Positions 5,464-64,000 of a stretch of DNA of 64,000 nucleotides are shown piece after piece. Numbering within the stretch: the first letter of the stretch is position 1; each line of letters begins with the position of its first letter. Position numbers and translations under genes: made by a program. This DNA comes from Nereocystis luetkeana (lineage: Eukaryota > Sar > Phaeophyceae > Laminariales > Laminariaceae), in contig JARUPZ010000030.1 of NCBI GenBank assembly GCA_031213475.1, positions 6,255,661-6,319,660 of the forward strand, read 5' to 3'. Under the pieces are notes generated by a model. That model searched no databases. It had not been told where the DNA came from and saw only the letters and a program-made list of their open reading frames with translations.

Positions 5464-8078
5464 TCAAAGAGAGCCCTCTACAAAATCTTCGTCAGAGAAC
5501 AGCCCTGCCAGCGACTCCTTAACTACGACCGCCGTTCCCCCTTCTGCAGGGACGTCAGTACCCGCGAACAGGCTCCCTAGCGGAGACATCGGCACGCCAC
5601 CCGCCGCCTTCAATTTTTTCCCAGGACTGCTAAAACCGGTATCCTGAACATGACTATCAACAGCCCCCTTCCTCTTACCCCCCCTCGTTACCGTCACTGT
5701 CGCTGTCGTCCACGCGTTTGCTTGCGCGGTGCCAGCTACAACCGCACCATCCGCTTGCATCTCAGCTCCAGAAGCTGGTGGCGTTAAGCCCACCTGATCA
5801 TCGCCCGCAGAACACTCTCCCCGTTCGGTTAAACGGGCTGGCGATGCGCCTGAATCGGGGGGTATTTTTTCGCTGGCGACATCGCTGTTCGTGGACCCCC
5901 CACCGGCATCGAGCATCGTCTCAGTGCCATCAGTGCCATCAGCTTGCTTCGCATCTGACGCCGCCTCCGCATCCGCCACTGATAGTGGGGTCCCCCCCGC
6001 GGCCCCACCATCCCTGCCATCGAGGGCCAACGAGGGCGGTGACCCATCCGCGGAAAATAGGGAGTCTCTGGCCTCAGCTTCTTCCATAGTTTCGCCTGCT
6101 GGCTCCGTGGGCTCCAGCAAGGTATCGACCACCCGGTTGGCACTTTCTCCACTCTGCTGGACAGCTTCCCTTTCCGCGGCGGAGTCCACATCAGCAGAGG
6201 TGGGCGCAGCAGCGGCGGAGGAAGAAGGGGTTATGATGGGGTCCGAAGTCGCTTTCTTCACCACCTTTTCCTCTTCTTGCATCTCAGCAAGGGCGGCTTC
6301 GTCGTCCTCGAAATCGTCACCCCCCACCCAACCGGTCTCCTCATCCATCATGTCCATCTGTGGGTCATCGTCGTTTTCGTCGTGGGCGCCTACTTCCACC
6401 GTTGCTGCCGCTGTCACAGCCGCCGCCGCGGCCGCGGCCGCCGCCGCCTCTTCCTTCTTCAAGCGTAGCCTCTCCATCGCTCGTCGGCGGTTAACCTCCA
6501 TGCGCTCCCGCACATCCTCCGAAACCACACCGACACCGCCGCCGCCACCACCACCACCACCACCACCATCACCACCACCAGAAGAAGCACCCCCGGTTGT
6601 CTGGCCCTCTCCTCCACCTCCCTCGCCCCCTTCGGCCCCTTCGGCCCGCGAAGCCGGAGGAGCGCGCTCCTCGTCGACGTCCATGTAGCGGCTTTTCGCC
6701 AGCTCCTCTTTCTCACGCTTTTCGGCGGCAGCGGCCTCCTTGGCGGCTGCTTTAGCGGCGTCCTTAGCGTGGGCGTCGTCGACCGCAGAGGAGCCGTACT
6801 TCGCCTCGATCACGCGGTCCCTCTCGGTGTTGCGGAGGTCGAGCATGAGGTCGCGAGTCCGTTCTCTGCCGCCCAGCTTTTCTGTGCGGCTGGCGAGGTC
6901 CTCGAAAGCGACGCCAGGGTAGAGCTGGTAGCCCCACTCCTTGTAGGCCACCATCAGACCTCGCAGGAACTCCGCCTGTTGGAGGTTTAGGTCGAAAGTG
7001 CCGTGTCGTGAGCAATGAGTGGGTGAACGCCCATCTCGTGTTATTGTTGACACGTTTCAAAACTTGAGAGGAGTAGAACATTAGTGACGAATACCGGCTA
7101 CAGCATCGGCCACACGGTAGCAACTCTGCGTTGCTGAGCTACGTTTGAGGGATAAGGGGTGGTACATTGAGTTGCCGAACTGCACTGCAGGGAGTTGTGA
7201 TGCTGGCGTACTGGTGCTCGCTCATACTATACCTGGTATTGCAGTAAACAGACGGATGATAAGACCACTCTCTTGTTTTTCGTCGCCTACCATTTACAGT
7301 ACCAGGTACCTGATACGTACTATGGCTCAGAAACACAACAGAGATACAACAGGCTCCGAGCTTCTCACAACACGATAATCTTGATAGCTCGATGTTTATT
7401 AATAGCAGTACTCCTTAAACCAGGTGCCCCAGGGTATGCGATATCATATACCTGGTACCAGATACCAGGTACCTGCCTGGTACAGTAGACAGCTGGCCAC
7501 CAAGTACATGCTGAATGGTTAGATATCATACGCCGGCGGTTAGAATACACCCACCAGTAGGAATAGCACCCAGGTACCTCTTGTGAGTGATAAGAACGCG
7601 AGACAAGCAGAGGTTGAGGTATGAATGTGCTACGTGTGGTGCGACCAAGGTAAACGTGTTGCAAACTACAGCAGTCAGTATCTCTCTCTGCTCTTCCGTC
7701 TCCTGGCTCCTTGCTCCTCGTCTTCTTTTTTCCAGCGCCGACGAAGCATGTGATGGTTGGCTTGATCAACGCGTTTGGTTGGGAAATTTGAATTTTGCCC
7801 ACCTCTCGTCCCTTCCCCTTGTACTTGCACTTTTCGGGAAATCGTTCGTAGATCTGGAGCAAGCCTTTCTCTTTGACCAAATCATTCTCCGAGAAAGCGG
7901 GCCTTCTCGTAGACGTGGCCTTCTTGGTCGTCTCCTCTGGAGCGACCTGTTGCGCTGCCGTGTCTGCTGTTTCGTTGCCGGCAGGCTTGGGATCATTGCG
8001 GTCATTGTCGCTATCCTCATCGTTTTCGTCTGCCGCACCGATAGGTCGAGGCCGACGCTCACCCTCTGATTCTGACAT
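5464..8078 (-). CDS. TIPIN: TIPIN/Swi3/Csm3-type replication fork protection protein
   Basis: Two exons: 8078-7803 (92 codons) and 6975-5464 (503 codons plus stop), joined in phase 0 by a GT-AG intron of 827 bp; about 595 residues. The Swi3/TIPIN domain straddles the junction. Residues 59-92 carry RPAFSENDLVKEKGL and KYKGKGRE, and the next exon continues AEFLRGLMVAYKEWGYQLYP and FEDLASRTEKLGGRERT to about residue 154. In known family members this domain binds Timeless/Tof1 and stabilises stalled replication forks in the nucleus. The rest is low-complexity: Ala/Glu runs, a long Gly run (about 6537-6580), an Ala run (about 6420-6450), an acidic DDDPQMDMMDEE segment, and a tail ending SDEDFVEGSL. 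It is much longer than animal TIPIN (about 300 residues). The frame stays open upstream to a Met at 8201, so the start is uncertain. I am fairly sure of the family from the domain pattern alone. Confidence 0.85.
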
Positions 8079-8369
8079 CACAACTTCGCGACTTACAGTT
8101 CCCTTCTCTCGCAGTAGGAGCACGCCGGTTCGTGCCCGCTTTGGTCTACCGTGCTCGGTTGATGATGAGAGACCTCTCACGGGACCGTGTAGCGTACACA
8201 AAATTCAAAAAATTATATCAATAGAACGCTTCCCAGGATGTTGAAACCCCTCAGCGTTGTGCGAACCACGAACCACAACACCACCAGCACTCCGCTGGGC
8301 GTATATATAAACCCCTCCAGGTTGGGACCGGCGCACCAGCGGTGGATCGGTGGCACTCACGTATCAAGC
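8079..8369. promoter_or_regulatory. Head-to-head promoter interval between TIPIN and NUP35
   Basis: About 290 bp separates the TIPIN start (8078, minus) from the proposed nucleoporin start (8370, plus). A TATA-box-like TATATATAA lies at 8302-8310, 60 to 68 bp upstream of the plus-strand ATG, with GC-richer sequence around it. The spacing fits a core promoter for the plus gene. Sharing of the interval by TIPIN is inferred from geometry only. Confidence 0.5.
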
Positions 8370-11300
8370 ATGTTTGAAAACTCGAGCGTTTTATCCGGGT
8401 AAGCTCTTCGGGTGTGTTTTTTGCGTGGTGCTGGTGCGTATCGGTTGATGAGTCTTCGCAGTGATTGTGTTATGTCTGTCCCGTCCGTGGCAACCGCGAT
8501 GCTGCCCACAGCAGCGTTGAACTGTAAAAGTGGCCGTTGTCAAAGCTAAGCTATCTACTCACACCGTTACCCCGTGCATCCCGGCGTGGGAAGCTCTCCG
8601 TGTATCGTTTGTAGGCTATTATTCGACCTTCTGACTGACCACTCCTAACCCCACTCGTACACCGCAGCACAAGCCGTACTCCCCGTTTGGCTGTTGACTT
8701 TTTTGTTTTGTACCTCGTAGTGTACAGAAAATTATCTCCAGCGAGTACCGGTACTGGTGAGGGTACAAGTTACAAGGTACCTGGTATTGACAGATTAGAT
8801 TATTACAGATCGTAGCAACATGTTGTTTGTACTGCTGTAGTTCTTAGGTACACGTAGTCTATCAATTGGTATAGTACCAGACTTTCCCGAGCCTGTTTTC
8901 AACTGACAGCGGTGTGCTACTTGATAGCCGCATGGGTTCACAAGGAGCTCGTGTACTCGCAGAACCACATGACTCGCTCGGTGTACGAGTATCGATTTTG
9001 TTGATAGTCCGCGTCCGAGTACGTAAGTAATCAAAAGGGTTCGCATGGAGCTCGCGCAGATGTTCCCGCGCTAGATGTGCCCGCACAGAAGCTACTATTG
9101 TACTGCTGTAGGAGAGTCTAGCACAACGACCCCACGGCATGCCTCTGGTTAGGATTAGGGTAGATTTCCGGGTCTGGGTGGTGGCCGTCGTTAGCCGAGG
9201 CCGAGAGCATTATCACTGTATTGAAATAAGTCTCTCACAGCAGTCTCGTGACAAAACCCTATTATACCTCATTGCAGCGTCATCATTTTATTCGGACACT
9301 TGTCAGGAATTTCGCCTCCGCTGGCAGACCTGCCGCGGCCGGTTCATGTGGTGTCATGCTCGTATTTGACCGAACGACATGAGCCACGAGACGTAAGACT
9401 TACTTGACTGTAGTACTCATGAGGCACACCACGCCGGGTAACATATAACGCAAACGTCAGGGCACACCACGCCGGGTAACATATAACGCAAACGTCAGGC
9501 ATTCCCAAACTGTTGTGCTTCGTTGGCTGGCGTTTGGCCGTGCGTGCGCAGGGGCGGAGATGCGGTCTACGGTTCCCAAGAGGGCTACCAGGGGTACCAA
9601 TCGCGCGGCCGAGGTAGAGGTAAGTCCTTCCCAGCTTTCGTGGTGCATCCGTAAAGGCTTGAACTCGTGAAAAGCTTGACAGGCTTGATTTCGCGCGTGA
9701 CATGGATCGTTGTTACCAGTGTGCGACACGCCGTCCTGAATGTGCGGGTAGGAACAAACACCTATTGATGGTGTTAATACTCGTACGAGCTTGTACTTGT
9801 GGTACGGTATGATCACGCATTTGCACCGGACAGGCGTGAGACAGCAGTGCTTGGGTGGCGCCCACACAACACAGCGTTCTGCACTTGTTCGTACTCGAGC
9901 TCGTACGGCAGTGTTGTTTTTATCATGACCTGTCTGAGAGCAAAACACATGTATATACCCGGTGGCGTACAACACGCTATTATGAGAGAACACACACACC
10001 CTCGCTACTACTGTAGGAGATGCTGTTAACAATGGGGAGAGTGAAAAGAATACCGAGAGTTGCGTCTATGAGAAGATTTCGACGAGACCTTCCAAAGTCA
10101 CCCTTGTTATAGACAGAATCGGCTGAAAAAATCAGCCCGGGGGGTGTGTTATCTTACCACCCGTGTGATACCTGTACCAGGTACCACGAAAAAGTGACTG
10201 ACCCACCTCACTTCAGTGCGACACGCGGTTGCAAGGTACTGTAGAATAGGCGAATAGGTCCCCTCTCTCCCTTGGCTTACCCCGTGGGCACATACATGCG
10301 TCAGGTTTTTGTCTCGAACTCCCAAGGCTCATCGGGTCCGTCCTGCTTACTCCCGCTACATACATACTCCCACTCGCTTTTTACGTCTTCGTCGGAGGCA
10401 GCGTTCCGAGCTCCGGTGGTGCGCGACGTGCACAAATGAATAACGGCCTATAGTAAATGCAAGGCCCGTAAATAAGTGTATGGTGTCTAATAATAGTAAG
10501 GATTGGCAAAAAAAGAAAGAAAACGCATGATTTATGATTTGGTCGACATTTTTCCCGAAACTACCTGGTATTTAATATGGTAGTTTTTTCGCTGGATTTT
10601 TTCCGCGCATCTTCCGTACAGGTCGGCCAAGGGTTGGGGTCAGGATTAGGTTCAGGGTTAGCGTTGAGTTTTATGGCGTTTTATCCAAAAGACTCCTCAT
10701 AATACTGGAACCATACGCCGTTCACACGATTTTTTCGCTTTTTCCATATACCAGGTATGTTTCTCTAGATGCCTTGCATAGCCGGCTCACAACAGCAGTG
10801 GAGTCAAACTTGGAAATACTGAGAATCAGCCCCATAACCAAACATGTTCAGACATTACCTGGCTATTTACCTCTGTCACTGTTACTAGACCAAGGGAACG
10901 GTCCGCCATCTACAACTACTGTATCTTGACTTAAATGCTGCCGTAAAAACAAGCAGCTAATTGACGCCTCGCCCCTCCCCCTCTCCTCGCGAACAATAAG
11001 CTCGACACGAAGCCCAAGAGGAGCGATACGTGGAGGGCGACTTATTCGGGAGCTCCAAGGTGAAGTCACCACCGATCGCATGCGTGCGCGTTTGTGTGTA
11101 CCGCATGACACATCACACGGCCCCTCTCACCCTCACTCGTGGCAGGGTATGACATTCGAAGCGGGACGTCCAATGTGCGTACCATGTATCTAGGCGTGTT
11201 GGCACGATACTTTGCGCCTTTGCCGCTGCATCAGCCTCACTTAGCCTTGGTCGGTCTCTTCTGGCATGCTTGCCGAAAGGTTTCCAATAGACAAAGTGGC

Positions 11301-14300
11301 GTTCACCGTCCATTCGGAGCTCTTCGTCCAAACGCAACGCACAGAATGGACAAATCGCAAGCATCAGGCTTTCAGAGGGAGTGTTTCATACCTGGTACCT
11401 CAGACAGATCATCAACCGATCATACAGGTAATCTACAGATCATTTTACTTGATGATCTAGACATTTCTACTCTATCTTCCTGATCTGTATGGTATATTGG
11501 AGCTCACGTTGGCGGGTGGGAGCCGTCTAATCTGCATGATCTAGGACAAGTTTCCTTAGTTAGATCTGTAGTATACATACAGATCCTGCACACCATCTCA
11601 GAACGGTAGGTTAGGATCTACTGTAGATTATCTAGATGAGTTGTCTGATCTATCTGATATATCTGATATGTCCGACGTGTGGAGTGTACAGCGGGGCACC
11701 GTATACTCTGGATGTACCCAAGTACCCGGGTATCTACCCGAGTAGGACCAATGTAACCAGGTTTGGTACCCGGGTACCCCAGAGTGTGTACCGGACTGTT
11801 ACACACCCGGGTATGACCCAATATAACCGGGTATCTATTTGGGTATGACCAACATAACCGGGTTTGGTACCAGGGTTCCCCAGAGTATATACCGTACTGT
11901 TTAGCAGGGTATATACTCTGAGTATACCCGGGTATCTACCGGGGTATGACCAACATAACCAGTTTTGGTACCCGTGTATCTCAGAGCATACCAATGTGGC
12001 CGATAATATAATATACGATTCATAATAACCCCGTATTCCAAACGGGTACTATATTCATGGCCAAGAGTGTGGTATCGTACGAAACGCACCCTTGCCAGCT
12101 TCCATCCACCCTTCAGATTAATCAGACGTACGACAGATAATCTACTGGTAGATCATGATCTAGATATTTGAGGACAGATGGTTATCTGATCTGTATGATC
12201 TAGCTCATGTAGCCGGGATGGAAGCCATGTAATCTGCATGATCCCGCACACGTCTCCTGGGTTGGATATGTACTATCACAGATCCCGCTCAGCGTTCGCA
12301 CTCTGTTGGCAGTCGGCAGGTGAGGATCTAGATGATCTGCAGTAGATAGATCAGATAGATCATCGTCTGTCCGAGGTGTACAATATGTTATTTCCACCTG
12401 CGCCGTGCTTAACCCCGCCCTTCGCACTCATAGCGCTGGCTGACACGATGCGCCAACATAACAATGTGCGTTTTTCTGTTCACTCTCTTCCACCTCCCCT
12501 CGCTCGGGACCCGCTTTGTCTTCGATTTTGATAACAGCGCGCCAGCTTCCGTTCGTCGGACCCTCCTCCCGGACAGCCTTCCCGCCCTGCCTACTTCGAG
12601 GGCTCCGGCTTCAACGCGTTCCGCAACGGGGGCGCCGGGGGGGGGCAACCCCAGGCTCCCGCGGCGCAAGCGTCGCCCTTTGCGCGCGGACCGACACATC
12701 CGAACGGTTTCATGATGCCGCCGGCGACATGGGGCGCGATGGGCGGGGGGGCGAGCGCCGGCCCCGGGAGGGGATACGGGCAAGCGAGCGCTGTTGGTGT
12801 CGGCGTCGGGGGCGTTAGGGGTGCTGGCTTGGAAGGCGGCGACACGGGGGGCTATGGCGGCGAGGTGGCCCTTGTGCCCGTTGATTCGAACGGATCTAGC
12901 CGTCTGATGGGAGACGACGACGACGATGACATGCCGACTCGGTCTTTGGCGGACAGCCATGACGTGCGCGATGATATGATGGGTGCGGGAGGGTTGAGGC
13001 AGAGGCGTGGTGGGGGACATGGGAGGGTTGCGGGCGCCGTGAACGCTTTGCCCGATGAGCAGAGGGCGACCTGGGTTGTGGTGTGGGGTGTGCCGGCCGG
13101 AAAGTCGGACGACGTTTTGACCTCCTTCTTGCAGTTTGGACACATCGAGGAGCAGAGAGGCGCGCCTGACAGCAACTGGCTCTACTTTAAGTGAGTGAAG
13201 TACGGCAGCAGGTGCTGTACGATGTACCAATCTGGCCGGAAATATAAGGATCGTTTGTGCGTTAATATGAAAACAGTGCGGTCCTTCTATTTACGCCCAG
13301 AGTGATAAATAGATAACTTCGTGCGAGTCAGGTACGAAGAGTTGCATTGGCTGCAGTTTGTGTTGGCGCGCCAATGCTCGAAAGGAAGTATACACCCGGT
13401 CTGATATACTACCCGGTAGGTGGTTTCGCGTCCGTAATTTTGTCCTATACAGGAAATGGGTGCGGGTGGGTGTGGATCTAATGGCTTGGCGTACCCCCGC
13501 TGAGACTGTTTGTGTTTCTTTGAAAAAGCGTGGGTTCATTGGGAGTTTTTTTCCACATAATTTTGGTGTTCTATCAGGTTTTCGCCAGCCTTGGAGTGGC
13601 GGGCAGCAGCGAGTATGATTGATGCCTTGACAGCACCTCGGCGAGGCACTGATAGCATACGGCGGGAAAACGTGCACGCACATATGAAGTATATATTTAT
13701 ATATGCTAGGGGGTTTTTCTCCACCAATCGCTTTCCTTGCTCTACCTGTCGCCTTCCTTTCTGTACAAAACAGTCTACCTACGACCGGGGTCACGTTGCG
13801 CACGCGGGGCAGGGTGCGCCCTCTTGCGCCGCATGAATTCTCCGCTGGCGTATCAAAACATCATCATGTCATCATCACAATTCATTTGGGTTGCGGTGTT
13901 TCGGTTGTCGATGGCTGGCTCTACAGCTTGAAATCACCCGTCGCCTGACGTACTGGTCTATCCATGTCATACCATTATCATACACATTATATGATACTCT
14001 AGTCTGGCGGGTTCCTGGGCGGTGCAAGTACTGCCGCTGTATTCAGTATCGATGGTGTAAACGCCCAACCCCCTCTCCTTCCCCTGGTTTGCTTGGCTCG
14101 AATGGTGGGTTCGGTTTTCTTTGCGGTAAGGTACGCGACAAGACTGCAGGCAGAGAAGGCGCTCGCTGCTGGACACGGCTCGCGCTTGACGGAGACGGTC
14201 ATGCTCGGCGTACAGAGGGTCAACGAGGACGAGGTACGTTATTGCTAATTCAGTATGCACTACAGTACTGGTATGTACTACAGTATGCACTACAGTATTG

Positions 14301-17300
14301 CTCTACTGCTGTATAACTACTGAATGCACTATTTTCCTGGTATATATGTATATATATATATATACAGTATGGTACCAGAAACATTGATCCGCTCTTTGCG
14401 TTGGTTGAAATGCTCAGTACTACACGCAGGCCTGTTGGGAGTTCTTAAGTCAACGGACCCCTTGCAATACTCGACCGAGCGCAGGGAGGCTGAGTGCTGC
14501 TACGTACGTACTTGGGCCTGGTCAAGGCTTAATTAACCCTTTTAGAACTCCAGTCCCGTTTTGGGGACAAACCACTCAAATTCCAAGTAATTTGTCCCCA
14601 ATTGTCCCCAAAACGATACTGCAGTGCTAAAATGGTTAACCCATTGATAGGTGCCAACAGGTGCCACCCTCGTTTTAGGGTACAAAGTGCTTGAGTTCCG
14701 TTGCAGCAGTAGAGGTGTTGAGGGCTCTGCTCCTCTTGCGGGTGGGCTTATGTAATAAGCAGAACCCAATATCGTGTGTACACGTAGGGAATATATAGTG
14801 TTTTTGGGCCCATCGTGGATTCTGATTACTACGTATGCCCGCCCGGTGGTAGGGTATGCATGGTGTGCGACGCTCGTGTGGCCTGGCAGACATTTCGCGA
14901 TGTATGTTGTCTGAAAAAAACCCGAGAAAAACAGGAGACCCGCAAGCGTGGTCCCGAGGTGGTCCCGAGGTATGATACTCATAGTTGAGTGTGGCCCTCG
15001 GTGGTCGGAAGACTCAGGAAGAACCCCGGAAGCTAAGTTGATAAGTAGATTACCCTGATGGTTAGCTTGTCTGCGCCGCGCGCCCGAATTTTGTGCTTGG
15101 TTTCCCTGTGCCTGGCCGGATGACATCGACCGATACATAAATGCTCTCGCGAAATGATGGATCCTCGCTGGCACAGGTATGGCAAGCTTTGAGAGAGGGC
15201 CGCATCCCGCCGCTTGGTGCCGGGCAGCCCGTGCTTGGGAGAGAAGCGGTTAGGGGGGCTGCGGGAAGAGGTCGAAGTTCCAATGCCCCACGCTCTGGCG
15301 GGTGAGTCTAGAGTACGCCGAACGTCGGACGGGTTAGGGTTAGGATTGCAATTAGGAAGTGCACTTGAGGGTTGCAATTAGGGGTGGAACAGCTTATTGG
15401 CTTATTCCTGCCGTACTACGGTAAGGGTTGCAATTAGGGGTTGCACTTTTGCGCCCAAACATTTTGTCTCGGACGGAGGTCCTTAAAGGAGGAGCTATAT
15501 ACGCTGCTCTGCTAATATTTGACGTTTTCTGTATTTGTATTTGGTAGCACTTAGGACATGCATACCTGGTATCATACGCATGTATGGTACGTAGGTGGGC
15601 CTCTGTGTGGGTTGCGATCGTTTTTGTCTCACGCAACTATTCACAATTCATTGGATTGCACTACTGCTGCGTATTTCGTTTGCTAGCACACAGCATTATC
15701 GTGACTCTGCTTCAGCTGCTACTGCCGATGTGTATCCCTTCACGTTAAACCGTTTTTTCTGCCCGTCGGCATCCAGCACAAACAGCGTCCGTGGCGATTC
15801 TTCAATCCTGTTATTAATAATAGAGAGATACAAGATCTGTGGTCGCAGAGCTACGCCATAGAGATGCTACATTGTTATGCAGTGAGCAGAGTAGACAATG
15901 CAATACCATGTCATCGTACTGGATACGACAGGCACGACATACACGTTATAGCATGCATTAAAAGAGAGAAGAAATCGAGAGGAACAAAAATAGCAAATCG
16001 AAACAAAACAAAGAGCTGTCGTGCCCCCCCCGCAGGAGATGTGGCCGACAATACGTAATAAGCACAATAAACAACAAAGTAAGACTCAGAACGAAAGGAT
16101 AAAAACGGGCAAACCAAAGCACCACAAGCTAGAATGTAGCGTCCCTCTTTCGCAAAATGAAGTACTTAGTTGAAACCCCCCCATTTTTATTCCGCTGCCA
16201 GGTATGCATACCAGGCATGCATACAGATACCAGGTATTTTTTCACCTATAGTTGGTACACGTATACCTGGTACGTATACAATCTTAACCTGAACATTCGT
16301 GCCGGAAGGTCAAACTGAAAAACGCCATATACCACACGCATATTTGTACTGACTGTTTTGCTCTGACCACAAAGTGAGCCTTTCGAACGAAGACTGTATT
16401 TTTCGCGGAAATATGTTCGTTGGTTGGTATGTATGTCTTGGTAGATGTTGTCAGCGTCCACCTACAGTGCTACGACGATGCCACGTGGCTTGCCCCTAAC
16501 CAGGCACTTTTCTGTTGAAGCCTGTCTCCTGTTAGGAATAGCACCACGTACCAGGTATGCACTTGGAAGTATGTACTCAGAAAGGTCACGCTCAGTTGTC
16601 ATGCTCAGCGGACAGTATTTTTGTCACGGTGTCGGTGCCCTATCTCCGTAACCGTTGACGGAATGGTGCCGTTTCGAAGAACTTGCCGCCTCTCTGTCGC
16701 CACCCGCCGCCGAAACGCGTGCTCCCCCCGCCATCGTATCATGGTCATACCTTCTGTTCGATCCCCATCCTTTTTCTTGCCATAGTCATACCTTTTTTTT
16801 TTTCGCCAAAAATGTAGATGTCAGCAGATTACATTTTTTTTCTCTAATTCAGTCTTTCTACGGATCAGTAAAACTGCAGTAAGGCTTAAGCCGTTTAGGC
16901 CTGAAGGACCGCACTGCCCTTGTGGCGGACAAAACCCTTGGAATTAGAGTCAGATTTAGTACAGCAGGTTTATGTACACTGCAGTATTAAAAGGTTCACT
17001 AATTCATCAGCAGTTTAGGCCTGTGATAGACGGCAGTCAGACTTGATATATTAGTAATAGTGTAAGGTCAGTGTGGGAATGTGGTCCTAACGCGTAACTG
17101 GCGACGCCTTAAACTGCCGCCTCGTGACCTGTTTCCCCCTTTTTCCAGTAGAAGACGTTTTGTTCGCCTTTTTTTGTTACCTTAAGACCCTTTTTTTTCG
17201 CTCTTGTCGCAGATTTGATCTTAGACCTCTTTCGTTCCCCTCTTTTAGCTGAAACCTTTGTATTCGACCCATAGTCTCTGTACACCGATTTGTTTCTCCC

Positions 17301-18126
17301 GTCACCTATCTGAATCTGCTTTCTCGCCAACTCACCACGCCTGGTACCGCTCATTATTTTGAAAAATAAACAAAAAAAAACAGTACGTGTATGTTTTGTT
17401 TTTTTTATCTCGGGAAGCGCGATCGAGAGCGTGAGTCACGAGCAAAAATCGATGATAATCGACCAGCGGTGGAATTGCTGAGTGCACCCTATCTATGCTG
17501 CACGATATTGAGCCCCTTACCCCGTTTGGCATAAACCCCACCGCGTATGGCGGCCAAAGCAATGGTTGGTGAATTTGCTGCTTGTTATCAGCCGTCTGCG
17601 GGGAGCGTGAGCGAGCGCCCAGCGGTACGGGTAGTGCCATGTTTTGCACCCGCGCCGTACGACTCCTTTCAACCATTCCAACTAGGACACCAACGATTGT
17701 ATCACCCCCCAATCACGCGGTGGCCATCGCTGCCGTCGTCATATTTTATCGTCAATTTTCCTCTCTATAGTTCCAAAGGGTTTATTGAAGAGGATCAAGG
17801 CATTACTGGTCGGGGGGGGAGGAGGGCAGACACCCGTGACCACGGCTTGTCCAGAAAGCTGGAGGGTAAAGGCGATGGTTAAAAATATATACCTGGTAGA
17901 TATTAATAAAATAGGCCCTTTGGATTGCCTCTTATCCTCATCTTGATTTTTTTGTTCGCCCCTTTTATCCCTTATGGTATATTTTGTGCCCTTTTTTGTC
18001 GCGCGCTCGATGAGCAGCGGACCGCCGCAGGTGGATGACGAGGACCTTCTCGACGCCCCTCCTCAGAGACCGCGAGGGGATAGAGGCGTGTGTGGCAAGG
18101 TCATGGGGTTCTTCGGCTTCTACTGA
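8370..18126 (+). CDS. NUP35: Nup35/Nup53-type nucleoporin
   Basis: Proposed exons: 8370-8398, 12546-13190, 14131-14233, 15177-15301 and 18018-18126; all phases agree and give about 336 residues, close to the usual length (human about 326). Exon 2 has a Gly/Pro/Phe-rich N-terminal region (FEGSGFNAF, NGFMMPPATWG) and an acidic patch, then begins the Nup35-type RRM with TWVVVWGVPAGKSDDVL and DSNWLYFK. Exon 3 completes it with YATRLQAEKALAAG and TVMLGVQRVNEDE. The last exon ends CGKVMGFFGFY, matching the C-terminal amphipathic membrane-binding helix of the family. The product is expected in the inner ring of the nuclear pore, binding Nup93/Nup155-class partners and the pore membrane. Exons 2, 3 and 5 are firm. 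Exon 4 rests on good splice sites and phase. Exon 1 (MFENSSVLS) rests on its donor, phase and TATA box; an alternative acceptor at 12537 is possible. The coding end runs into a minisatellite. Confidence 0.83.
9423..9498. repeat. 38-bp exact tandem duplication
   Basis: The sequence at 9423-9460 is repeated at 9461-9498. It lies inside the first intron proposed for the nucleoporin gene. Confidence 0.85.
11385..11690. mobile_element. MITE of the GGACAGATC family, copy a
   Basis: About 300 bp, starting near CAGACAGATCATC and ending near GATATGTCCGACGTGTG, so the ends are inverted repeats of the form CACACCTnGGACAGAT. Internal landmarks (GATGATCTAGA, GGCGGGTGGGAGCCGT, AATCTGCATGATCTAG) recur in copies at about 12120-12385, 25955-26425 and 58560-58838. 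There is no coding capacity. The left end carries an extra CCTGG-TA word at 11391-11397. Confidence 0.7.
11691..12005. repeat. Degenerate tandem block rich in GGGTATC/GGTACCC
   Basis: About three imperfect units of roughly 105 bp, each containing a CCCGGGTATCTAC-like core, TATGACCAACATAACC and GGTTTGGTACC. Many sub-segments are palindromic. It lies between two copies of the GGACAGATC MITE. Confidence 0.65.
12120..12390. mobile_element. MITE of the GGACAGATC family, copy b
   Basis: Same internal landmarks as copy a (GATCTAGATATTTGAGG, GTAGCCGGGATGGAAGCC, AATCTGCATGATC), ending ATCGTCTGTCCGAGGTGTAC. The left end is less clear. It lies just upstream of NUP35 exon 2. Confidence 0.65.
14537..14635. 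mobile_element. piggyBac-like MITE with TTAA target duplication
   Basis: A 99-bp near-palindrome beginning CCCTTTTAGAACTCCAGTC and ending GCAGTGCTAAAATGG, flanked by TTAA at 14533-14536 and 14636-14639. TTAA duplications and CCC termini are the hallmarks of piggyBac-class elements. A related copy lies at 40599-40688 and a degenerate one near 22795-22905. It is in NUP35 intron 3. Confidence 0.75.
15302..18017 (+). other. NUP35 intron 4
   Basis: A 2.7 kb intron with no recognisable gene. It contains fragments of the second tRNA-derived SINE family (17395-17520 and 17800-17890), poly-T and poly-A rich stretches, and TA-flanked short words. A lysine-rich minus-strand frame at 17109-17354 is not supported by any motif. 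Confidence 0.6.
17395..17890 (+). mobile_element. SINE family B, broken copy
   Basis: Bases about 17412-17512 (GGGAAGCGCGATCGAGAGCG and following) match the body of the SINE at 43288-43658. Bases about 17800-17886 (CCACGGCTTGTCCAGAAAG) match its 3' part. The intervening 280 bp does not match. There is no tRNA-like head here. Confidence 0.6.
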
Positions 18127-45885: not shown

Positions 45886-45925
<40 letters not shown>

Positions 45926-46812: not shown

Positions 46813-46866
<54 letters not shown>

Positions 46867-52800: not shown

Positions 52801-54029
52801 GAAGGCGCCTACGAAGAGGGGGAGAGGAATGACGACAAGGATGGGAGAAAGGACTCGGGTGGGAGCGGAGTAGATGGTGACAACGATAGTGATCACGGAG
52901 AGGGCAGCTTTTGCGATAGCAGTGCTAGCGAGGTAGAGGGTGAAGGCGGGGAAGAGGTTCCTGACGCCGTTGCCGGGACTCAGCGCTCGCGCAAGGGGAA
53001 AGGGCGTAAGCGGAAACGTTACAGCTCCGTTGGTGAGCACGTTTCCTCGGGGCCAGTGCCCACCAGCAAGAGTACACACGCGGAAGAGCTCGGACGCCGA
53101 ACGTGCGCATGCGTGACCAGTGACGGGCGTACAGTCAATAGCGGCATTAATATGAGTGAACACCTTTTCAAAACCAGAATAAGAAATCCGCACGATTTCT
53201 GTCCGGCGAATATAAGAAACGGGATCAGTGAGAAAAAGGCTTAGAAAAATAAATAAATAGGAAACCCAGGCTGAGCTCAGATCTCTGTTTCTTATTAGGT
53301 GTCCTGTACTGTACCAGGTATGCCAGTATGCCGAAGACAACAACAACAAACACCACTGCTGTAGTACTGAGAGTACAGCGCGGATCTGCCACATGTGCAT
53401 AGTACGCTACCTGCTGCTGCTGTTGGCGCACTGTGTCGAGCACGGCTGGAGCAGTGATAGTGTTGGATCACACACAGCAATTCGTAGAAGAAGCAGCAGG
53501 GAGAGAGGTGATCATAATGATACAGGTATACTATGTCAGCCTGGGTCTAATAGCCTGGGACCTGGTAAAAGCAGACTGTGAAATACGGACGGCAGGCTCC
53601 GATAAACTCTACCAGCCACAGCGAATGGGTGGGTCGCCCACACACAGCGTGTGGGAGGCAGCGTTGTAACGATGGGATTCGTGCATGTTGTCTGTTGTGT
53701 ACCTGGTATATGTCCGGACGGTGCGCTCACAGCTCATCATGAGAGCCTAGGGAAGAAAACAGACAACAATATTATTGCGGTACGTACGTACAAAATAAGG
53801 CCTCTCGTCCTGCAACCAGGGAACTGGTCGTATCCACTCCCGCCGGAAAAATAATTTTGAGCGCCCGCCACGTGCTCCAGAGGGCACGGATCGCGCCCGG
53901 ACCTCGACCGATGTGTCCGGCCGGGCTTACCGTGTCGGCTACTTGGCGTTTTGCTCAAAAGCGCTCGTACGAAGATAGATGTTCAAAAAAGAACGAAAAA
54001 ATCACAATTACAATCATAACTATTAATAT

Positions 54030-54074
<45 letters not shown>

Positions 54075-57000
54075 CTAGCGGTCGCACATCAAGCTCGCCC
54101 TTTCGTGGTGGCTGCGGAGGGTGCATTTGTTGGTTTGCTTTTACGTACCATGATTCCTGTCGACCTATTGGAGGGGGTACGAACGAAACAACATGCCTGG
54201 TACATACACAAGTAGTATCAGGAAAGGCGCAATTTATGGGGGGCAGGACGACGATCCGAAGCGACACTTCCTCGGGATTTCAAAAGGCAACCGCGCAGCC
54301 ACGGTACACACTACTGCTGTACATCATCATCAGCAGCAGAAGCAGCAGCAGCAGTACAACGGCAGTACAACAGCACCAGCGTCTCACACTTCGGGCGTTG
54401 TGACAGCATCGGTGCTTCTTCTGTGTTTGTAGGTGTGTGGAGTGCTCACCGTGAGATACATGCAACTTACTGCTGTGTTCGCATTTCCCGTATAATTTTT
54501 TAATCAAGCACACGTCGTCGAACCTCATCCTGTCACATAGCCGTACTTTTTTTTTTTCTGCTCATCCCATTCTTTATCTTCGCCCATCTTCTTCTCTCTC
54601 TCCTTCCAACTCGTAACTCAGATCGGGGGCCACATAGCAGACTCTTCTCCCCCCTTCCCGCTACGGTACGTGCCTTCATTTTTATCGCGATAAGATTTCA
54701 GCCTTTTCTTCCCTCGTCGACTCGCATCGAATTGTGCCTACCCACGCTGCAAGGCGCTCTCAACAATTGAATCCTTTTGATTTTATTTTTGCAAATAAAG
54801 TCTAAAGTCCGACCCACCTGGGGCTCGAACCCAGGACTCAAACACAAGTAGAATTCGAGGTTAACCACTTGAACCACCGGGGCGACCGGCAACGGTACTC
54901 GGAGTATTTTTTTTGGGGGAACCTGCTGATGATGAGACCCCCCCCTTTTCAACTCGCAACGCCCCGGGATTCAAGTCGACAACATCCCGAAGGGGAACCT
55001 TGCATACATACGCAACACTTGAGTTTGGTGGATCGGAGTTTTATTTTTATCAAGTTCCAGGTATTATGCATATAACCGGGTACTGTTATATGAAAGGCAC
55101 CTTGCATGAACAGATGAACAGTCTGGTGGCATGGTGGCGGCGTGCTGACGTGTTGCTGACGCGGCGAAGTGTGAATGTGTGCCATTGGCAGTCCGCGTGT
55201 TCACACCTTTCCGTACTATCATGTCATGACTATTGGTACCGCCGTCATGACATGATAAGGATACGCACATTATATATTTCGCGTGCGGATGTACTCACAT
55301 ACCAGGTAGACATGTATACCCAATACACACTCAAAAGCGTTTCACGAATCCGCTTGTTGATTGAATTGCGGGCAGTTGACATGTTGACCCCATGCTGCAC
55401 GCACGCACGCAACCCTCAAGAATTTGTAACCTTCTGCTGTACCAACTGCTGCCTGTTTTTATCATTCCCTCTCCCTACCCTTTACAAAGAGAGTACATGA
55501 TATATGAGACAGTTTCCCCCGTCAATGCCATTCGTAATTACAATAGCACAGCAGTAATCTCCGCTACGTATGCACGTATAGCGTCAATGCCGTTCGATTG
55601 TTGAAATTTCAAATCACACGAGACGGAGAGGAAAGGTTCAGCTGCTTGGCCGGACAAATCATATCATGTACCTGGTACGTACTTTCTCGATATATATTAA
55701 TAGCTGTCACACCAACTTATCCCCCACCACTGCTACGCATTCTATGTATACATAGTCTATCACTGGAGTATAGTATACAAAGAAGTTCGTAGACTAATGC
55801 AGTACTATAGATGTGTAAATAAGTACCTGCACCACCCACGTTTTGGGGGCAAGTATTACATACTTACAGAAGAGTATTATACTCGGAATTAGAGAGTGGC
55901 CGATTTAGCACACTAGTACTTTTTACCCTCGTTTTGCGACTTAGCTTGTGCTACGTAGCCACAGGCCGTATCCCCATGTATGTAGAAGGAAACTCTAACT
56001 TGGAGGATTAATGCTATCTGTTTCCTGTGGGTGTACGACGTGCCAGTTTAGTTTAGACTGGTTGGATGGTTGAATGAACGGGTGGTCCCTACTGCAGCAA
56101 GACTGAACAAAAAACGTCCCATCCCTCGGCGTCCACCGTCGTCGTTTACTCCGCCCGCGCTGACGTACGCCTTCCAGCCGGGATAGAAACCGTGAGCATG
56201 CGCGGAACACTCGCATCCGCAAGAAGCAGTACTTGGAGAGCTTGAAGCGGGGGGTCGGAGAAATGTTGCAGGAGAAAGCGAGGGAAGAGAGAGACGCCCG
56301 GCTTGAGGCTTCCAAGCTAGCGGCAGATGTGAGGCTGTGCTCGCCAAGTGCGGAAGAATCGCTTGCATGTTAAGCGATCGAACGAGTAGTGCAGAAGAAG
56401 GGAGGTTGCTCTTCCCGCTAGTGAAGGCGGTGAAGCGTAGCGTAGCATTCAGTGTGCGTCGTTTTGAACAGAGGAACCCAGGACGCGCTCGAACGCGCCA
56501 ACTATAGAGCGAGGTCTCACCCCTGTATCGTTTCCGTGTGGTAAGCTACAACTATGATCAGCAGCAGAAGGTGCCGCAGTGCCTGTATTTCGCTCTTGGA
56601 TGGCACCAACCCCCCCCCCCGCCCCCCCTTCCCACGCACGCGCACTCTGACCCTCCATCGGGACTGCCTTCTTTTGCCTCTCTCCTACCATGCGTCCGTT
56701 GGTTCTACGTCGTTATTTCTGCGGTATTGCGTCCGTATTACCCACTTACGAAACGAACGCCACGCAGAGAGTGGCTCAGCGGCAGATGGTGCTCAACATG
56801 TTCTACCTTAAGGCTGCTGAGGAACTGTCTCCGCACGCGTGGGCGTGCGTTCTTGACGACGACTTTGCTTGCGTCTCGCCCATCACGCCGTTCAGATCCT
56901 TCTTGCCCTCGGAGGTAGGTCCCGCCACACGCAGATAGCAGGTAGCAGATAACCGCTGGGCGTACGTGTCGCGTCGCATGCGGTGTGGTGTGATAGGATG

Positions 57001-60000
57001 TGGCCCCACGGTAGGTATCATAGCGTGCATCGCATCATACTGTGCGGTTCGTGGGTCTGGTACGGCCAGTAAGCGTGTGGTGAGGGCCGGGCAGTTGGGC
57101 AGTGCTTTGCGCCTTGGAAAGCTTGTAAGGGATGGGTTGGGTTTTCTTTCGTCGGAGGCCTTGGTTAGTGCTGCTGTATCGCGTTATACTTGTAGCACCT
57201 ATGTTCGTGCTCTGCTCTTGTTAGTGATCGCTGGTTGCTGCCATTGTTGCACGAGGTGTTGCTGCCTTATTCCTCACACGCTACGCTTACAGCATGTATC
57301 TGATTTCTCTAGAAACTAGCGCCCAATGATAGGCTCTCTGCGGCGGCGACGCATCTCTTCAGCATGGATAGAGCAAGGGCATGCCTCTAGATCTCTCCAC
57401 AGTCTACAGTAGTCTCTACTAATACTCATCTACTACCAGGTATGGACTACTACCGGTCATCAACAGTTTATCAACAGTAGTATCTACTGTACAAGACAGC
57501 ATTTTACCTGGTATACTGTTCACAGTTATTTAGCTCTTGAGTATTTAGCTACTGTGCTCGTGATGACCGAGGCGCTATTTCTATTACGGGGGACCATAGT
57601 TAATAGGACCAAATATTGTTGGGGAAAATGGTTAAATATATAGGTTTTTGTGTATACCACAGGTCCTATTAACTATGGCCCCCCGTAATAGTTCGTAATA
57701 GTGACGCTAGCGTGATGAGTGTATCTTGTCATGCCTATTTTTGAGGAAGGCGGCGGTATTAGAGTGTTCGACAGTCGATAGGCACGCAACAAACGGGGTC
57801 CAACATGTACGGTATATTATGCCGCCCTATGCTCACGTCACGCAGGCACGGGAAGACCACCGACTGATCACGGGCGTCGACGGGATGATTCAGGACACTG
57901 CGTCGTTCGCGGTTTTCATCCAGTCGATCTGCCCACCTAAGCAGAACCCGACAAGGCGGAAGGTAAGCCGAAACCAATCTATCACAACTGCAACCGGCAT
58001 TGTCATCGGTCCCTCCCGCGCGGCTCAAGCCCTGCTCGTACAGAGAGGTTGAGATAGATGTTCGGCCAGGGACCGGGGTTGGATCGATTTTTCCTCCTGA
58101 TCCACTACCGTACCCACGAACCCAGGTACGGTCGCCCCAATCATCAGAGTGGGAGCGTGTAGCTGTACAATAGTACCGCATCACACTAGGGTGATAATTT
58201 ACCATACCCCCTCGGAAGAATGTCCAAGTTACAAATGTTGATCTCCACAACGGAGAGCGTCAAAAACCGCCGAGCTGTGCGTCTGCGGAAAGGTAGGTCT
58301 CGGTTGGGATAGTTCCAGCCCCACTATTTTCGCTGTGTGTGCGCACCCCTTGCCCCCGGAGAAAAACCGTCTAGGAAATGTATCCCAGGGGTATGTTGTC
58401 TTGTCACACGTGTTATTCTGTAAGGTGCCATATTATCGCACGTGCCGGAAATCTCCGTCTTTTGTAGATCGGGTAAAACGTGAATCCCGCACGTCAGCAG
58501 CCCGGATTACGTATTTTGGGTGATGCTGTAACTGCCACTTCGTTTCGACACGTTTGTCCATGTCGGACAGATCATCTACAAATCATCGGCTCCCACGTGA
58601 TGATCTAGATATTTCAAGGCAGAAATATCATATATTCCCCATCTTGCATGATCTAGTTCCATGTGGCCGGGTGGGATCCGTATAACCTACATGATGTACA
58701 GAAGTGCACGCTTCCTGGGTTTGATTTGTACTGTTTACACACACCCTGCACAAATCTCTCATCACGACACGCGAGGAGCTGGATGATCTACCTAGATGAT
58801 AGATAGATCATGATCTATCTGTCCAAGGTGTGCACTTTTGGTCCTTCCAAGTAGTGTGATAGTACCTTAGGAACCTTCAGTTCGCAGAGGAGTGCAATCG
58901 TTTTTCAGGGCTCGATTTTGTCCCGAACGGGAAGGTAGCCAGTACCGAATACCGCATTTTTGGAAACATCGGGTCGAGAGCGTTCCGGAAATAGAATGTT
59001 CGACTTTAGCAGCGTTACTGCTCTTGTCGAGAAAACGACTGCTGAAACATTGTCGCAACCTACCCCGTGCCAACTCGACGCTCTTTAAGTCATGCTAGTA
59101 TAATAATAGTATAATTATATTATTAGTCCGAAATAGGGTCGTTGCTGGAGTTGGTTCTTGTTGGGTGATCATCGCGCACGTTCTGATTCTCGCCTTCACT
59201 CACGCGGTTGCTCGGCATCGTGCAGTTGTCCAGGGCGGGTGTGGGAGGGAAGGGGAGGCTAGAGAGAAATTGACGAAAATGCCTCTTCTTTGTTGGTGAC
59301 GCCCTCGCCGCTCCGTGCTTCTGTGCCCCCTCCCGTCCAGCTGAAGTATCAGTTCTACACGTCGCCGGAAGACACCGTCGTGGGACCAAACGAGGTGATA
59401 ACTAAACGCGGCAGTGGCAGTGGCAGCAGTAGCGGCAGTGGTAGCCGCAACGTTTTTTGTCACTTCGGTGATACGTGCATTGTCGCTTCATGGTCTGTAG
59501 AGGAGGGCCGCCGAGCAGCACCTGAACTCTGACAAACTTGGGCGCTGCTGTGCTGCGTGTTATTCTCCCCCGCGACATCGCCCCGCCGCGCCCTTTTTTT
59601 TGCTATGCCGCATGTGTTTCTCTCCAGTGGCGTTGCCCCGGCTGTTCTTTACCTTGCCTAGGCTCACAAGAGCACCTATCTTAATACTGGTCTTTGCTCC
59701 CAACCACCCTTACGTGCCTATGTCGGTTGTCTGTTGTTTTGAACGATAGCTGATGTGCCAGTGGCTGATGCGAACAGACAACGCTACCGAGTGCGGAGCG
59801 CAGTGCGAGATTTGCAGCCACGGAATGCTGAGGGCAACATTCTCGCCCGACAACCGTATTCACCGCCTCGACCTTATTTTCGACGTGATGGGCTTCATGC
59901 AGCAGCTGCAGCGGGCAACGGGCGGCGGTGTCTTCAGGACTATACCGAACACGGTGCGTTGGAGATACTGCTGTACGTCAGCCTGGCGTATGGAGGGACT

Positions 60001-61827: not shown

Positions 61828-64000
61828 CTGCTTCACGTTTGTTGGGAATGGGGATTCGCGGTCGATGGAATGGGACCGGGAGGCGTGTCGCTCCGTCTGT
61901 GTTGTCTCTAGGGGTTCTGTGGCGCCCCGTTCCGGATGGCTTCTTGAAACAAAATGGACAACTCAGATTGTGTGCTTTTACGAGATGAACTGTGAGTCGT
62001 TTTCTTGGAGCGCGTGAATCGTTTTGGTTTAGTTGTTTTGGGAACGATCCGTTTGTTCGCTGGCCTCTGATTTCCGCTCCTCTGCCGATCCGGCGTCGCA
62101 GGCTAATATACTGTAATTATGCGGCATCGTTCCTCTCCCGGGGCCTTTACCCCAATGTTTGTGCTACCCCCCCCCTGTACATTATGTATGGGTTGGGTTG
62201 ACATCGGTTGACTACGACACTGTAAAACATGCCGCTCACTACGTGAGCTAGACAACCAGGGTACCTTCTTTTTTCGTTTTTTGGCGGTCGGTCGCAGCTG
62301 GCGATCGAGTTAGATCTTTTGCGCGGGGTGGAGAACCTTTACTCCGCACAAGGGGAATGATCGTATCACGCACTGGTAGTGTTTATGGTAGGACACCCAC
62401 GAGCAGTCACATACAACAGCCCCATTCCGGTCTTTCCAAGTGGCCGCACTAAAAAAGTTAATGAACTAATGGAAGTTGCCATCCATATGCAAGTCCGCCT
62501 CACAAGCGCTTCTTCGTAGGATGCAACTGACCCTTCATGCGGCTCGTCGACAACCTCACGGCGCTTCGCGCTTGGTGCAAGCAATGTCTGTCTGATGGGT
62601 GAAACTCCGACGTGCTCCGTTCCGGTATTGTAGGGATGCGACGGTCTATGGTCACACGACTACGGCCATGACTGATATCGAATACCCCCCCCACTACGTG
62701 AGCTAGACAGCCAGGGTACCGCTTCTTCTTTTTTTTTTTGGCGATCGCCCACAGCTGGTTGTCGAATTAGATCATTTGTGCGAGGTAAAGAACCTTTACT
62801 CCGCTCAAGGGAATTGATCGTATCACGTAGTGTTCAAGGTAAGGCACCCAAGAGGCAGTTACATAGTACTCCCATTGCTGTCTCTGGAAGTGCCTACACC
62901 GGAAATCAAATTAACTTATTGAAGCTGTCATCCATATGCAAGTCCGCCTCACAAGCGGTTCTTAGTAGGATGCAGCTCGCCCGTCATGCGACTCTCCGGA
63001 CACCTCACGGCGCTTCGCGCTTGGTGCAAGCAAGCAATGTCTGCCTGGTCGGTGAAAACCCGACATGCTCCGTCCCGGCATTGTAGGGATGGCGAGGGTC
63101 TATGACCATACGACTACGGCCATGCATGAGATCGAGTACATCTCTCCTACCGAGTACCCCCCCCCCCCCCCCCCCCCCAACCCCTTTCCCTCACCAGCCC
63201 TTTTTGCCCTTTCAATGTCTCGCCCGCCATGATACCTACGATGTGATACAGCATCGGGGATGGCAGGCTTGGAATTGTTTCCGTTTGTCTAAACAGGGAG
63301 ATAAAGAGGAGGTTACAAGCTGGTCCATCGAGGAGAGCTTGGAATGGACAGGGCGTCTTTTCCCCAGCTATACACAGTCGTTGTTGCTGCTGCAGCAAGT
63401 ACTTTGTACCTGGTATATCATTTCGAAGAGTTTGCCGACGGCCATCTTTGGTATTTTTTCTGCTTCGCGTGAGGAAAAAATATATAAATATATTCAATCA
63501 CGCGCACCTTGTCCCCTACATTCGGTCGATTGCTCTGTCGATTTTTCGTGAAGTGTTCCGTGGCTCCGCGCGGTATTTTTGTATTGAGTGTACCGATATG
63601 TCAGGCAACGTTCGCCGGTGTTGCTGCTGCAGTCGTGTGTGGGTGACAACAAGGCGTTTTACCGCTTGGTGGTGGTGTGGTTGTTGTTTGGTGCTGTTGT
63701 TTGGGGTTGCCAGGGGTGCACGGAAAGAAGAGAGAACGATGTCACACTCACGACGATGTCGGAGTTGAGAGTGAAACAGCGGGTTGAGATTTTTGCCAGA
63801 AGTTGAAAGCCACATATTTTTTAGTCTTTGTTTTACCTGATTTAAGTATAACCCCCTTGTATAAAACTAAAAAGAGCTAAAAAAGTGGGACGCCATTTTT
63901 TTTTTCGTGTTCCTTGGTGTTGTTTGTTTCGAGAGGGACGCCTAGTTTTTGGGCAGGGGGCGTATGCCTGGGAAGCCGAAGGGCTCAAGAAAATATATTT
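61828..64000. other. Downstream intergenic region, no gene recognised
   Basis: After the bZIP-PAS stop codon there is about 400 bp of unremarkable sequence that may include its 3' untranslated region, then the tandem repeat pair at 62220-63165, a C18-type run near 63158-63178, and about 800 bp in which I see no conserved coding or RNA signal. Confidence 0.55.
62220..63165 (+). repeat. Tandem pair of the edge repeat family (about 470 bp each)
   Basis: Two units start at CACTACGTGAGCTAGACA (about 62236 and 62691) and share GAACCTTTACTCCGC, ATGCAAGTCCGCCTCACAAG, CTCACGGCGCTTCGCGCTTG and GCATTGTAGGGATG in order. They are inverted relative to the copy at 720-1235. No coding capacity. Confidence 0.82.

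Follow-up and report, generated by a model that had tools for sequence, protein, structure and literature searches.

The trinucleotide CWG (W standing for A or T) is a known scar word of mariner/Tc1 transposons. TA-bounded excision is also known from ciliates, whose internal eliminated sequences are TA-bounded and are cut out precisely by transposase-derived machinery, one TA being left. Here we describe a dense system of TA-bounded micro-insertions in a 64,000-nucleotide stretch of Nereocystis luetkeana DNA (positions 6,255,661 to 6,319,660 of contig JARUPZ010000030.1, assembly GCA_031213475.1; henceforth the window) and in all 20 loci sampled outside it. The words in question, CCWGG, TTAA and CWG, each between two TAs, are probably footprints, left when TA-targeting DNA transposons of several cut-and-paste families excised. 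Our best reading is that, among several such scar-leaving families, one would be new to science.

Passages of PMC7827188 place the first nick of Sleeping Beauty (SB) and mariner three bases inside the element and describe the scars of SB as equal to the 3' overhangs, and an excerpt of PMC7913693 gives ZB, SB and Bari a palindromic AT target preference. The piggyBac transposon, according to an excerpt of PMC7351741, has TTAA as its target and is able to leave no footprint on excision. Among the papers listed in literature searches none reports scars like those described here, and those listed for the 9-mer TACCWGGTA are unrelated.

Abundance of TA-bounded words

Expected word counts in the window were taken from an order-3 Markov model and, for TACCWGGTA, also from 100 dinucleotide shuffles. 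TACCWGGTA occurs 40 times where the Markov model predicts 0.66; the shuffles gave a mean of 0.44 and a maximum of 2, and none of the 100 reached 40. The TTAA word TATTAATA (25 vs 2.1 expected), the CTGCTG/CAGCAG word TACTGCTGTA/TACAGCAGTA (18 vs 0.6) and TACWGTA (43 vs 16.4) are also in excess. The comparison sample, 20 loci of 10 kb taken at round coordinates on 17 contigs outside the window, has TACCWGGTA in every locus (76 vs 1.9 expected), together with 45 TTAA words (4.9 expected), 12 CTGCTG/CAGCAG words (1.0 expected) and 73 copies of TACWGTA (28 expected). TACCWGGTA averages 3.80 copies in 10 kb of these loci (standard error 0.50), roughly one scar per 2.6 kb, which extrapolates to some 177,000 copies in the 465-Mb assembly, provided that the 20-locus sample is representative. 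An earlier note on this DNA had claimed that TA-flanked words recur far beyond expectation, and these counts bear it out; the five indel pairs that it listed between copies of a dispersed repeat, Block B, and the words that it took to split a SINE box at 40910 and a MITE end at 11389 are likewise exact in the sequence.

In the pooled set of 264 kb (the window plus the sampled loci, L009-L028), TACCAGGTA ranks first by z of the 512 TA-N5-TA words, with 116 copies against 2.5 expected, a 45-fold excess. TACAGTA ranks first of the 32 TA-N3-TA words, TATTAATA second of the 136 TA-N4-TA words, after TATATATA, and TACAGCAGTA third of the 2080 TA-N6-TA words. The 2-nt word TA-CA-TA is also frequent (278 vs 128 expected), and was set aside because tandem CATA repeats confound its count. 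Judged by flanks of 20+20 bases, 112 of the 116 TACCAGGTA contexts are singletons, as are 110 of 116 CWG contexts and 28 of 30 CAGCAG contexts; the CCWGG words are not carried by repeats.

Empty alleles and polarity

Every word with a homologous copy was examined for an empty allele, that is, a copy lacking exactly the word and one TA, and sites with similar flanks were merged into deduplicated positions. CCWGG has an exact single-TA empty allele at 7 of 16 positions, compared with 5 of 171 for other TA-N5-TA words (one-sided Fisher p = 5e-6); among the five empty-bearing sites of these other words before merging, one is TCTGG, likely a decayed scar. Against other TA-words of equal length, TTAA has such alleles at 6/15 positions vs 8/187 (p = 1e-4) and CWG at 9/23 vs 7/166 (p = 8e-6), by the same test; the signal for CTCG is weak (2/7 positions, p = 0.044). 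Control gaps bounded by AT, CA, TG, GT or AC gave exact empties at 1.5-5% of positions. The event therefore varies with the word that lies between the TAs, which is not what plain TA-TA slippage predicts. No empty allele was found for CWGCWG (CTGCTG/CAGCAG) at its 15 deduplicated positions or its 34 sites, and on present data this word was rejected as a scar or insertion class despite its high count.

Gaps in repeat pairs, taken without polarity, are TA-bounded in 10 of 33 cases at length 5 (next dinucleotide, 5), 21 of 56 at length 6 (next, 5) and 16 of 27 at length 7 (next, 9). At length 8, which corresponds to 6-nt words, TA bounds 3 of 14 gaps, and CC and GG stand higher with 4 each. The preference of gaps for TA holds for 3-, 4- and 5-nt words and is not seen for 6-nt words.

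In counting polarity, the site's own copy was excluded and copies in some other state were set aside; sites with a single empty copy say little. Empties outnumber intact copies at all 7 CCWGG sites and all 11 CWG sites that have an empty homologue, and at 4 of the 6 such TTAA sites, the other two being ties. At most of these sites, therefore, the word was gained. Examples of CWG sites are one in L045 (11 homologues empty, 12 other) and one at L014 2417 (6 empty, 5 not classifiable). Where insertions of length 5-7 could be polarised by at least 4:1 copies, 13 of 34 are TA-bounded, one TTGA event being counted twice because L002 and L030 hold copies of the same sequence. A 22-copy alignment of Block B, read against the majority allele, contains 15 insertions of 5-7 bases, of which 5 are TA-bounded, and 6 deletions of the same size, of which 1 is.

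The earlier note had proposed excision scars or micro-insertions at TA, a reading that by its own terms calls for a preference of repeat-family indels for TA-bounded words. Both the insertion (from empty alleles, polarity and the target preference described below) and the indel preference stand for the 3-, 4- and 5-nt classes; neither is supported for 6-nt words, its CTGCTG class included. The excision step we only infer, since the search for parents of the 4- and 5-nt classes found none.

Target fingerprint, clustering and decay

Flanking positions were read outward from the scar, and the fingerprint p-values treat half-sites as independent. Next to CCWGG scars the base at +1 is a pyrimidine (Y) in 82% of cases, compared with 61% in the background of all TAs; T is found at +3 in 43% and at +6 in 46%, and A or T at +7 in 81% (p from 4e-6 to 7e-17), and from +9 to +18 no position differs at p<0.05. 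A second TA lies exactly 7 bp from the target TA, at +6/+7, in 66 of 232 CCWGG half-sites, compared with 7.9% for all TAs, and the five bases between the two TAs are of 55 kinds. When these cases are removed, Y at +1 is still found in 85% and A or T at +7 in 75% of the remaining half-sites. TTAA scars have TA at +2 in 34% of flanks (9.8% in the background), and next to CWG scars the +1 base is G in 43% of cases and C in another 26%. Control CCWGG words without TAs, which are richer in G+C, are unlike the all-TA background at many positions, yet show no W at +7. A palindromic preference around the target TA is seen in all three scar classes, differing by class and unlike ATATATAT; symmetry of this kind, particular to each class, would be expected from integration by a dimer.

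CCWGG scars form close pairs (12 of 95 spacings under 60 bp vs 2.5 expected), and scar words share one TA 18 times where 10 are expected. For CCWGG the excess of one-substitution neighbours is 0.56 of the excess of intact words, about 4% change per site; the same ratio gives 7% change per site for TTAA. Fixed words have been gained at single TAs with a palindromic target preference specific to each class, and the data support a TA-targeting enzyme as what inserted the 3-, 4- and 5-nt classes.

Candidate parent elements

CAG-ended, TA-flanked elements occur in the genome and fit the CWG class. The window element at 51851-53311 (1,461 bp) has inverted ends CAGTACAGGACACCWAATAAG, and its TA is empty in Block B copy 1 and in other copies; both ends carry an extra mirrored CAG-TA outside a CAGGACACC core. 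Its right TA adjoins two more TA-words, CCAGG and TGCCAG, both missing from the empty site. One reading frame of the element (52292-52873) has no Pfam match. We regard this element as a candidate source of 3-nt scars.

The Pfam domain DDE_1 (pogo type) has 28 matches in the genome, and 8 of these 28 loci were inspected for TA-flanked inverted repeats. L051 contains, at 1952-4564, a pogo-type element with a 24/24 terminal inverted repeat (TIR), CAGTGGGGGGCCCTATATAGTGCA, that starts with CAG and has TA on both sides. The genome holds 23 exact copies of its 28-base end, against 0 for the reversed control, and L049 has a left end identical to that of the L051 element. L078 has a related pogo-like left end at 176-188, CAG-CAGTGGGGGG after TA, for which no right end was found within 6.4 kb; this end suggests that a CAGCAG-ended element may exist. 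The other five inspected loci yielded no acceptable ends (weak matches of 13-15/24 are listed), and no CCWGG-ended copy was found at any of the eight. The flanks of the L051 family (23, two of them identical) have Y at +1 in 17/23 and A or T at +7 in 18/23, and in this small sample are nearer to the CCWGG than to the CWG fingerprint.

CCWGG parents were sought through shared TACCWGG continuations, TA-flanked inverted repeats, long inserts with a TA target-site duplication (TSD), DDE_1 ends and similarity among one-sided ends. A scan of collinear alignments for long TA-TSD inserts gave 86 candidates, many of them due to the nesting of repeats in L014. Inverted-repeat candidates numbered 179 when TA-flanked, 160 when AT-flanked and 281 when CG-flanked, so that TA is not clearly commoner. 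Two candidates with CCTGG at both ends, L002 3800-4474 and L014 5948-8766, have AT-rich inner matches and were provisionally taken as two scars each.

Two further observations may be recorded. Beside the L051 pogo-type element lies a repeat (L051 683-1915) that is 89% identical to window 35032-36257. L050 221-4162 (G000:C35:5110120-5114061) contains a DDE_1 gene divided among several open reading frames; its N terminus is rich in cysteine, and no TIRs were accepted within ~1.5 kb on either side. It is perhaps an intron-bearing and domesticated gene. The locus has four CCWGG scars, of which two stand between the DDE_1 frames, another falls within the third frame and the last lies outside.

Origin of the words

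If the words are excision scars, insertion would duplicate the target TA, and on excision the transposase would make a single-strand cut k bases in from each end of the element, giving a k-base 3' overhang on each flank. Both overhangs would consist of the element's first k bases, nearly self-complementary, and would anneal and be joined by the host, so that TA-(k bases)-TA would remain. By the logic of SB and mariner, CCWGG would be an overhang of 5 bases and TTAA one of 4. In CWG and CCWGG self-complementarity is broken only by a central W:W mismatch, and in TTAA it is complete; the presence of both A and T forms is a consequence of reading double-stranded DNA and adds no evidence. We infer that a longer element once lay in between, with 4- and 5-base overhangs and end-joining repair; excision of CCWGG and TTAA elements is presumed by analogy with the 3-nt class, for which elements with the right ends exist. 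The CCWGG and TTAA parents would be very scarce, or would have disappeared and left their scars behind. A bolder and more doubtful proposal is that an undescribed group of TA-targeting transposons with a 5-nt stagger, preferring a TA that has further TAs 7 bp to either side, left the ~177,000 CCWGG scars and has itself all but vanished; each TA-N5-TA scar would recreate the preferred 7-bp TA spacing and would therefore attract further insertions into nested arrays.

Several observations weigh against the words being excision scars. No accepted CCWGG- or TTAA-ended element was found in the DNA analysed, and the scars would outnumber their parents by a very large factor. Among the 135 one-sided TACCWGG ends only three pairs have near-identical continuations, two or more of these pairs lying within longer repeats; with both strands read, TA comes next after TACCWGG in 262 of 378 cases. 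A search of the genome with Pfam DDE_3 gave no match, nor did one with Transposase_1, for which the positive control was likewise silent, and none of the transposase matches could be linked to a scar class. The L051 pogo/Tigger family does not share the target fingerprint of the CWG scars, G standing at +1 in only 3 of its 23 flanks compared with 43% in CWG scars. Tc1/mariner footprints are given as 2-4 bp in an excerpt of PMC7913693, a range that excludes the 5 nt of CCWGG, and the SB scar is printed in a passage of PMC2874221 as TAG(T/A)CTA, that is, GWC and not CWG. In 15% of cases a TA also lies 7 bp beyond other TA-N5-TA words, so that part of the second-TA signal is general, not specific. 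CWG has no surplus of one-substitution neighbours. The CCWGG words at 30647 and 53700 are common to Block B copies, with no empty homologue seen. Lastly, tandem slippage at TA occurs too, 15 of 21 four-base deletions in the Block B alignment being TA-bounded (CATA units), and the majority of copies carry the word at 29707 (CTCG) and at 30233 (CTATA).

These last two points, and unpolarised pairs such as those of the earlier note, are compatible with the words being old and TA-word-TA collapsing to TA by slippage or microhomology-mediated deletion. Such a collapse is blind to the word, however, whereas other words of equal length are empty ~9 to 15 times less often; where a CCWGG, TTAA or CWG site has an empty homologue, empties almost always exceed intact copies, and the 45-fold over-representation is left unexplained, which makes this origin very improbable. 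We attach equally little weight to the idea that the words are parts of dispersed repeats (miniature inverted-repeat transposable elements, Block B, satellites) copied many times: some other TA-words (TAGGACCTA, TAGTTAATA) seem to have arisen in this way, and the CWGCWG word is present in many Block B copies, but the CCWGG and CWG contexts are nearly all singletons within the sample.

If TACCWGGTA were a functional motif (a protein-binding, methylation or splice-type site) under selection, the symmetric CWG/CCWGG site within it and its AG-GT core would fit. The word is gained by a precise 7-bp insertion at TA, however, several other words share its TA frame, and words form nested clusters; a splice-site or binding-motif reading is disfavoured because the flanks are symmetric, not orientation-specific, and selection on a motif is hardly credible as the explanation. 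Less remote, though still unlikely, is direct micro-insertion, in which a TA-targeting enzyme would insert pieces of 5-7 bp (short ends from abortive transposition, for example) and never a full element. No parent was found for CCWGG or TTAA, the scar number is very high, and polarity and target fingerprint need an insertion but not a full element, all of which this explanation accommodates. On the other side, CAG-ended elements with a TA TSD, expected to scar as the 3-nt class, exist here, and joined, trimmed or extended near variants (CCCTGCCTGG, CCTGCCTGG, CCAGGG) resemble end-joining products; to our knowledge no enzyme inserts such 5-7 bp pieces directly. We thus return to excision scars of TA-target transposons as the probable origin.

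Assays usually examine excision scars one locus at a time; the present genome seems to be a dense record of past transposition. Such a record would allow transposition events to be counted, dated by scar decay and used to read the target choice of lost enzymes, and would allow tests, on an evolutionary time scale, of how hosts repair the breaks that transposons make. Short indels bounded by TA may contribute notably to indel variation, and element copy counts can miss most past DNA-transposon activity.

Variant words and other features

In the pooled set TACAGCAGTA is found 30 times, in unrelated contexts, where 1.6 copies are expected. Trimmed or extended forms of the CCWGG end are enriched in CCWGG+G (10 vs 1.1) and CC+GG (15 vs 3.2), and the full fill-in product CCWGG-CCWGG is absent in all four combinations. 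Control ends are enriched too: GGWCC (18 vs 0.8; TAGGACCTA, taken as repeat-derived) and combinations of CGWCG (20 vs 1.1 and 67 vs 20.6, including TACGTACGTA and the CTCG word). The matrix of end-joining products was therefore not used as evidence.

A TA-flanked palindromic repeat of ~105 bp, TTACGGGGGACCATAGTTAATAGGACC, lies at window 33871-33978, 57582-57689 and elsewhere; it occurs at many loci and is densely nested in L014. A 15-bp tandem repeat, TAGATGATGTACCTG, occupies window 26242-26406. The open reading frame at 5464-7053 (-) matches a Swi3/TIPIN-type protein and that at 12712-13194 (+) a Nup35-type RNA-recognition motif; neither has a CCWGG scar inside. The 40 CCWGG scars of Table 1 are the exact TACCWGGTA matches in the window, with strand given as '.'.

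Table 1. TA-bounded words and the TA-TSD element in the window
Feature	Positions	Strand	Basis or state of homologues
CCWGG scar TACCTGGTA	7230..7238	.	word match
CCWGG scar, one TA in common with TACAGTA at 7295	7300..7308	.	word match
CCWGG scar opening nested run TA-CCTGG-TA-CCAGA-TA-CCAGG-TA-CCTGCCTGG-TA-CAG-TA	7449..7457	.	word match
CCWGG scar within nested run opening at 7449	7463..7471	.	word match
CCWGG scar	8778..8786	.	word match
CCWGG scar	10175..10183	.	word match
CCWGG scar	10562..10570	.	word match
CCWGG scar	10749..10757	.	word match
CCWGG scar	11389..11397	.	word match
CCWGG scar	15563..15571	.	word match
CCWGG scar	16228..16236	.	word match
CCWGG scar	16264..16272	.	word match
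CCWGG scar	16549..16557	.	word match
CCWGG scar	17890..17898	.	word match
CCWGG scar	25777..25785	.	word match
CCWGG scar	26802..26810	.	word match
CCWGG scar, Block B	30476..30484	.	1 intact
CCWGG scar, common to Block B copies (inherited)	30647..30655	.	4 intact, 1 with one substitution, no empty seen
CCWGG scar	33354..33362	.	word match
CCWGG scar	33378..33386	.	word match
CCWGG scar	35035..35043	.	word match
CCWGG scar	36004..36012	.	word match
CCWGG scar	36591..36599	.	word match
CCWGG scar	39316..39324	.	word match
CCWGG scar	43596..43604	.	1 empty (single TA), 1 with two substitutions
CCWGG scar, clustered	43759..43767	.	word match
CCWGG scar, clustered	43773..43781	.	word match
CCWGG scar, clustered; one TA in common with TACTGCTGTA at 43796	43804..43812	.	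word match
CCWGG scar	45568..45576	.	word match
CCWGG scar	46552..46560	.	word match
CCWGG scar	49756..49764	.	word match
CCWGG scar (CCTGG)	50899..50907	.	5 empty (single TA), 0 intact
CCWGG scar	51325..51333	.	word match
CCWGG scar adjoining right TSD of 1.46-kb element	53312..53320	.	not in empty site
CCWGG scar, common to Block B copies	53700..53708	.	3 intact, 1 with one substitution, no empty seen
CCWGG scar	55300..55308	.	word match
CCWGG scar	55669..55677	.	word match
CCWGG scar	57434..57442	.	word match
CCWGG scar	57505..57513	.	word match
CCWGG scar	63407..63415	.	word match
TATCTGGTA, read as one-substitution CCWGG scar	50422..50430	.	4 empty
TTAA scar	30055..30062	.	20 empty, 2 with word and one substitution, 2 other
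TTAA scar	43421..43428	.	2 empty
TTAA scar	50173..50180	.	1 empty, 1 intact, 1 with substitution
CWG scar	18180..18186	.	1 empty, 1 other
CWG scar	29499..29505	.	2 empty, 1 intact
CWG scar, second Block B copy, position matching 29499	51100..51106	.	homologue comparison
TACTCGTA (CTCG)	29707..29714	.	4 intact, 1 empty; polarity ambiguous
TA-CTCG/CGAG-TA word	43520..43527	.	1 empty
TACTGATGTA, one-off 6-nt word	30692..30701	.	1 empty
TACTATA	30233..30239	.	8 intact, 4 empty; polarity ambiguous
TA-TSD element, 1,461 bp, Block B copy 2, TIR CAGTACAGGACACCWAATAAGAAACAG	51851..53311	.	empty site in copy 1 and other copies

Comparison with known systems

The internal eliminated sequences of ciliates share TA-bounded excision with the words described here, but in Nereocystis heritable scars remain, some of them common to repeat copies. 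With piggyBac the likeness is that TTAA is the word of the 4-nt class. Here, however, the gain of TTAA adds 6 bp at a TA and places the word between two TAs, unlike the footprint-free use of a TTAA target; by this insertion pattern piggyBac was rejected as its source. The pogo/Tigger (DDE_1) group is represented by the L051 element with its perfect ends (TIR CAGTGGGGGGCCC...) and TA on both sides, for which the expected scar is TA-CWG-TA, but the insertion flanks of this family are unlike the CWG scar fingerprint.

The Tc1/mariner footprints of Sleeping Beauty, mariner and ZB agree with the Nereocystis words, as far as passages of PMC7827188, PMC2874221 and PMC7913693 describe them, in having TA on both sides of a short 3'-overhang word, a palindromic target and a 3-nt class. 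A duplicated TA facing a single-TA empty allele is found for CCWGG, TTAA and CWG alike. The differences are that the target fingerprints here are unlike ATATATAT, that no CCWGG or TTAA parent was found, that the scars apparently far outnumber the elements, and that CCWGG has 5 nt. CWG (3 nt) and TTAA (4 nt) fall within the 2-4 nt of such footprints; CCWGG works like a Tc1/mariner scar, yet we do not file it as one because its length lies outside that range.

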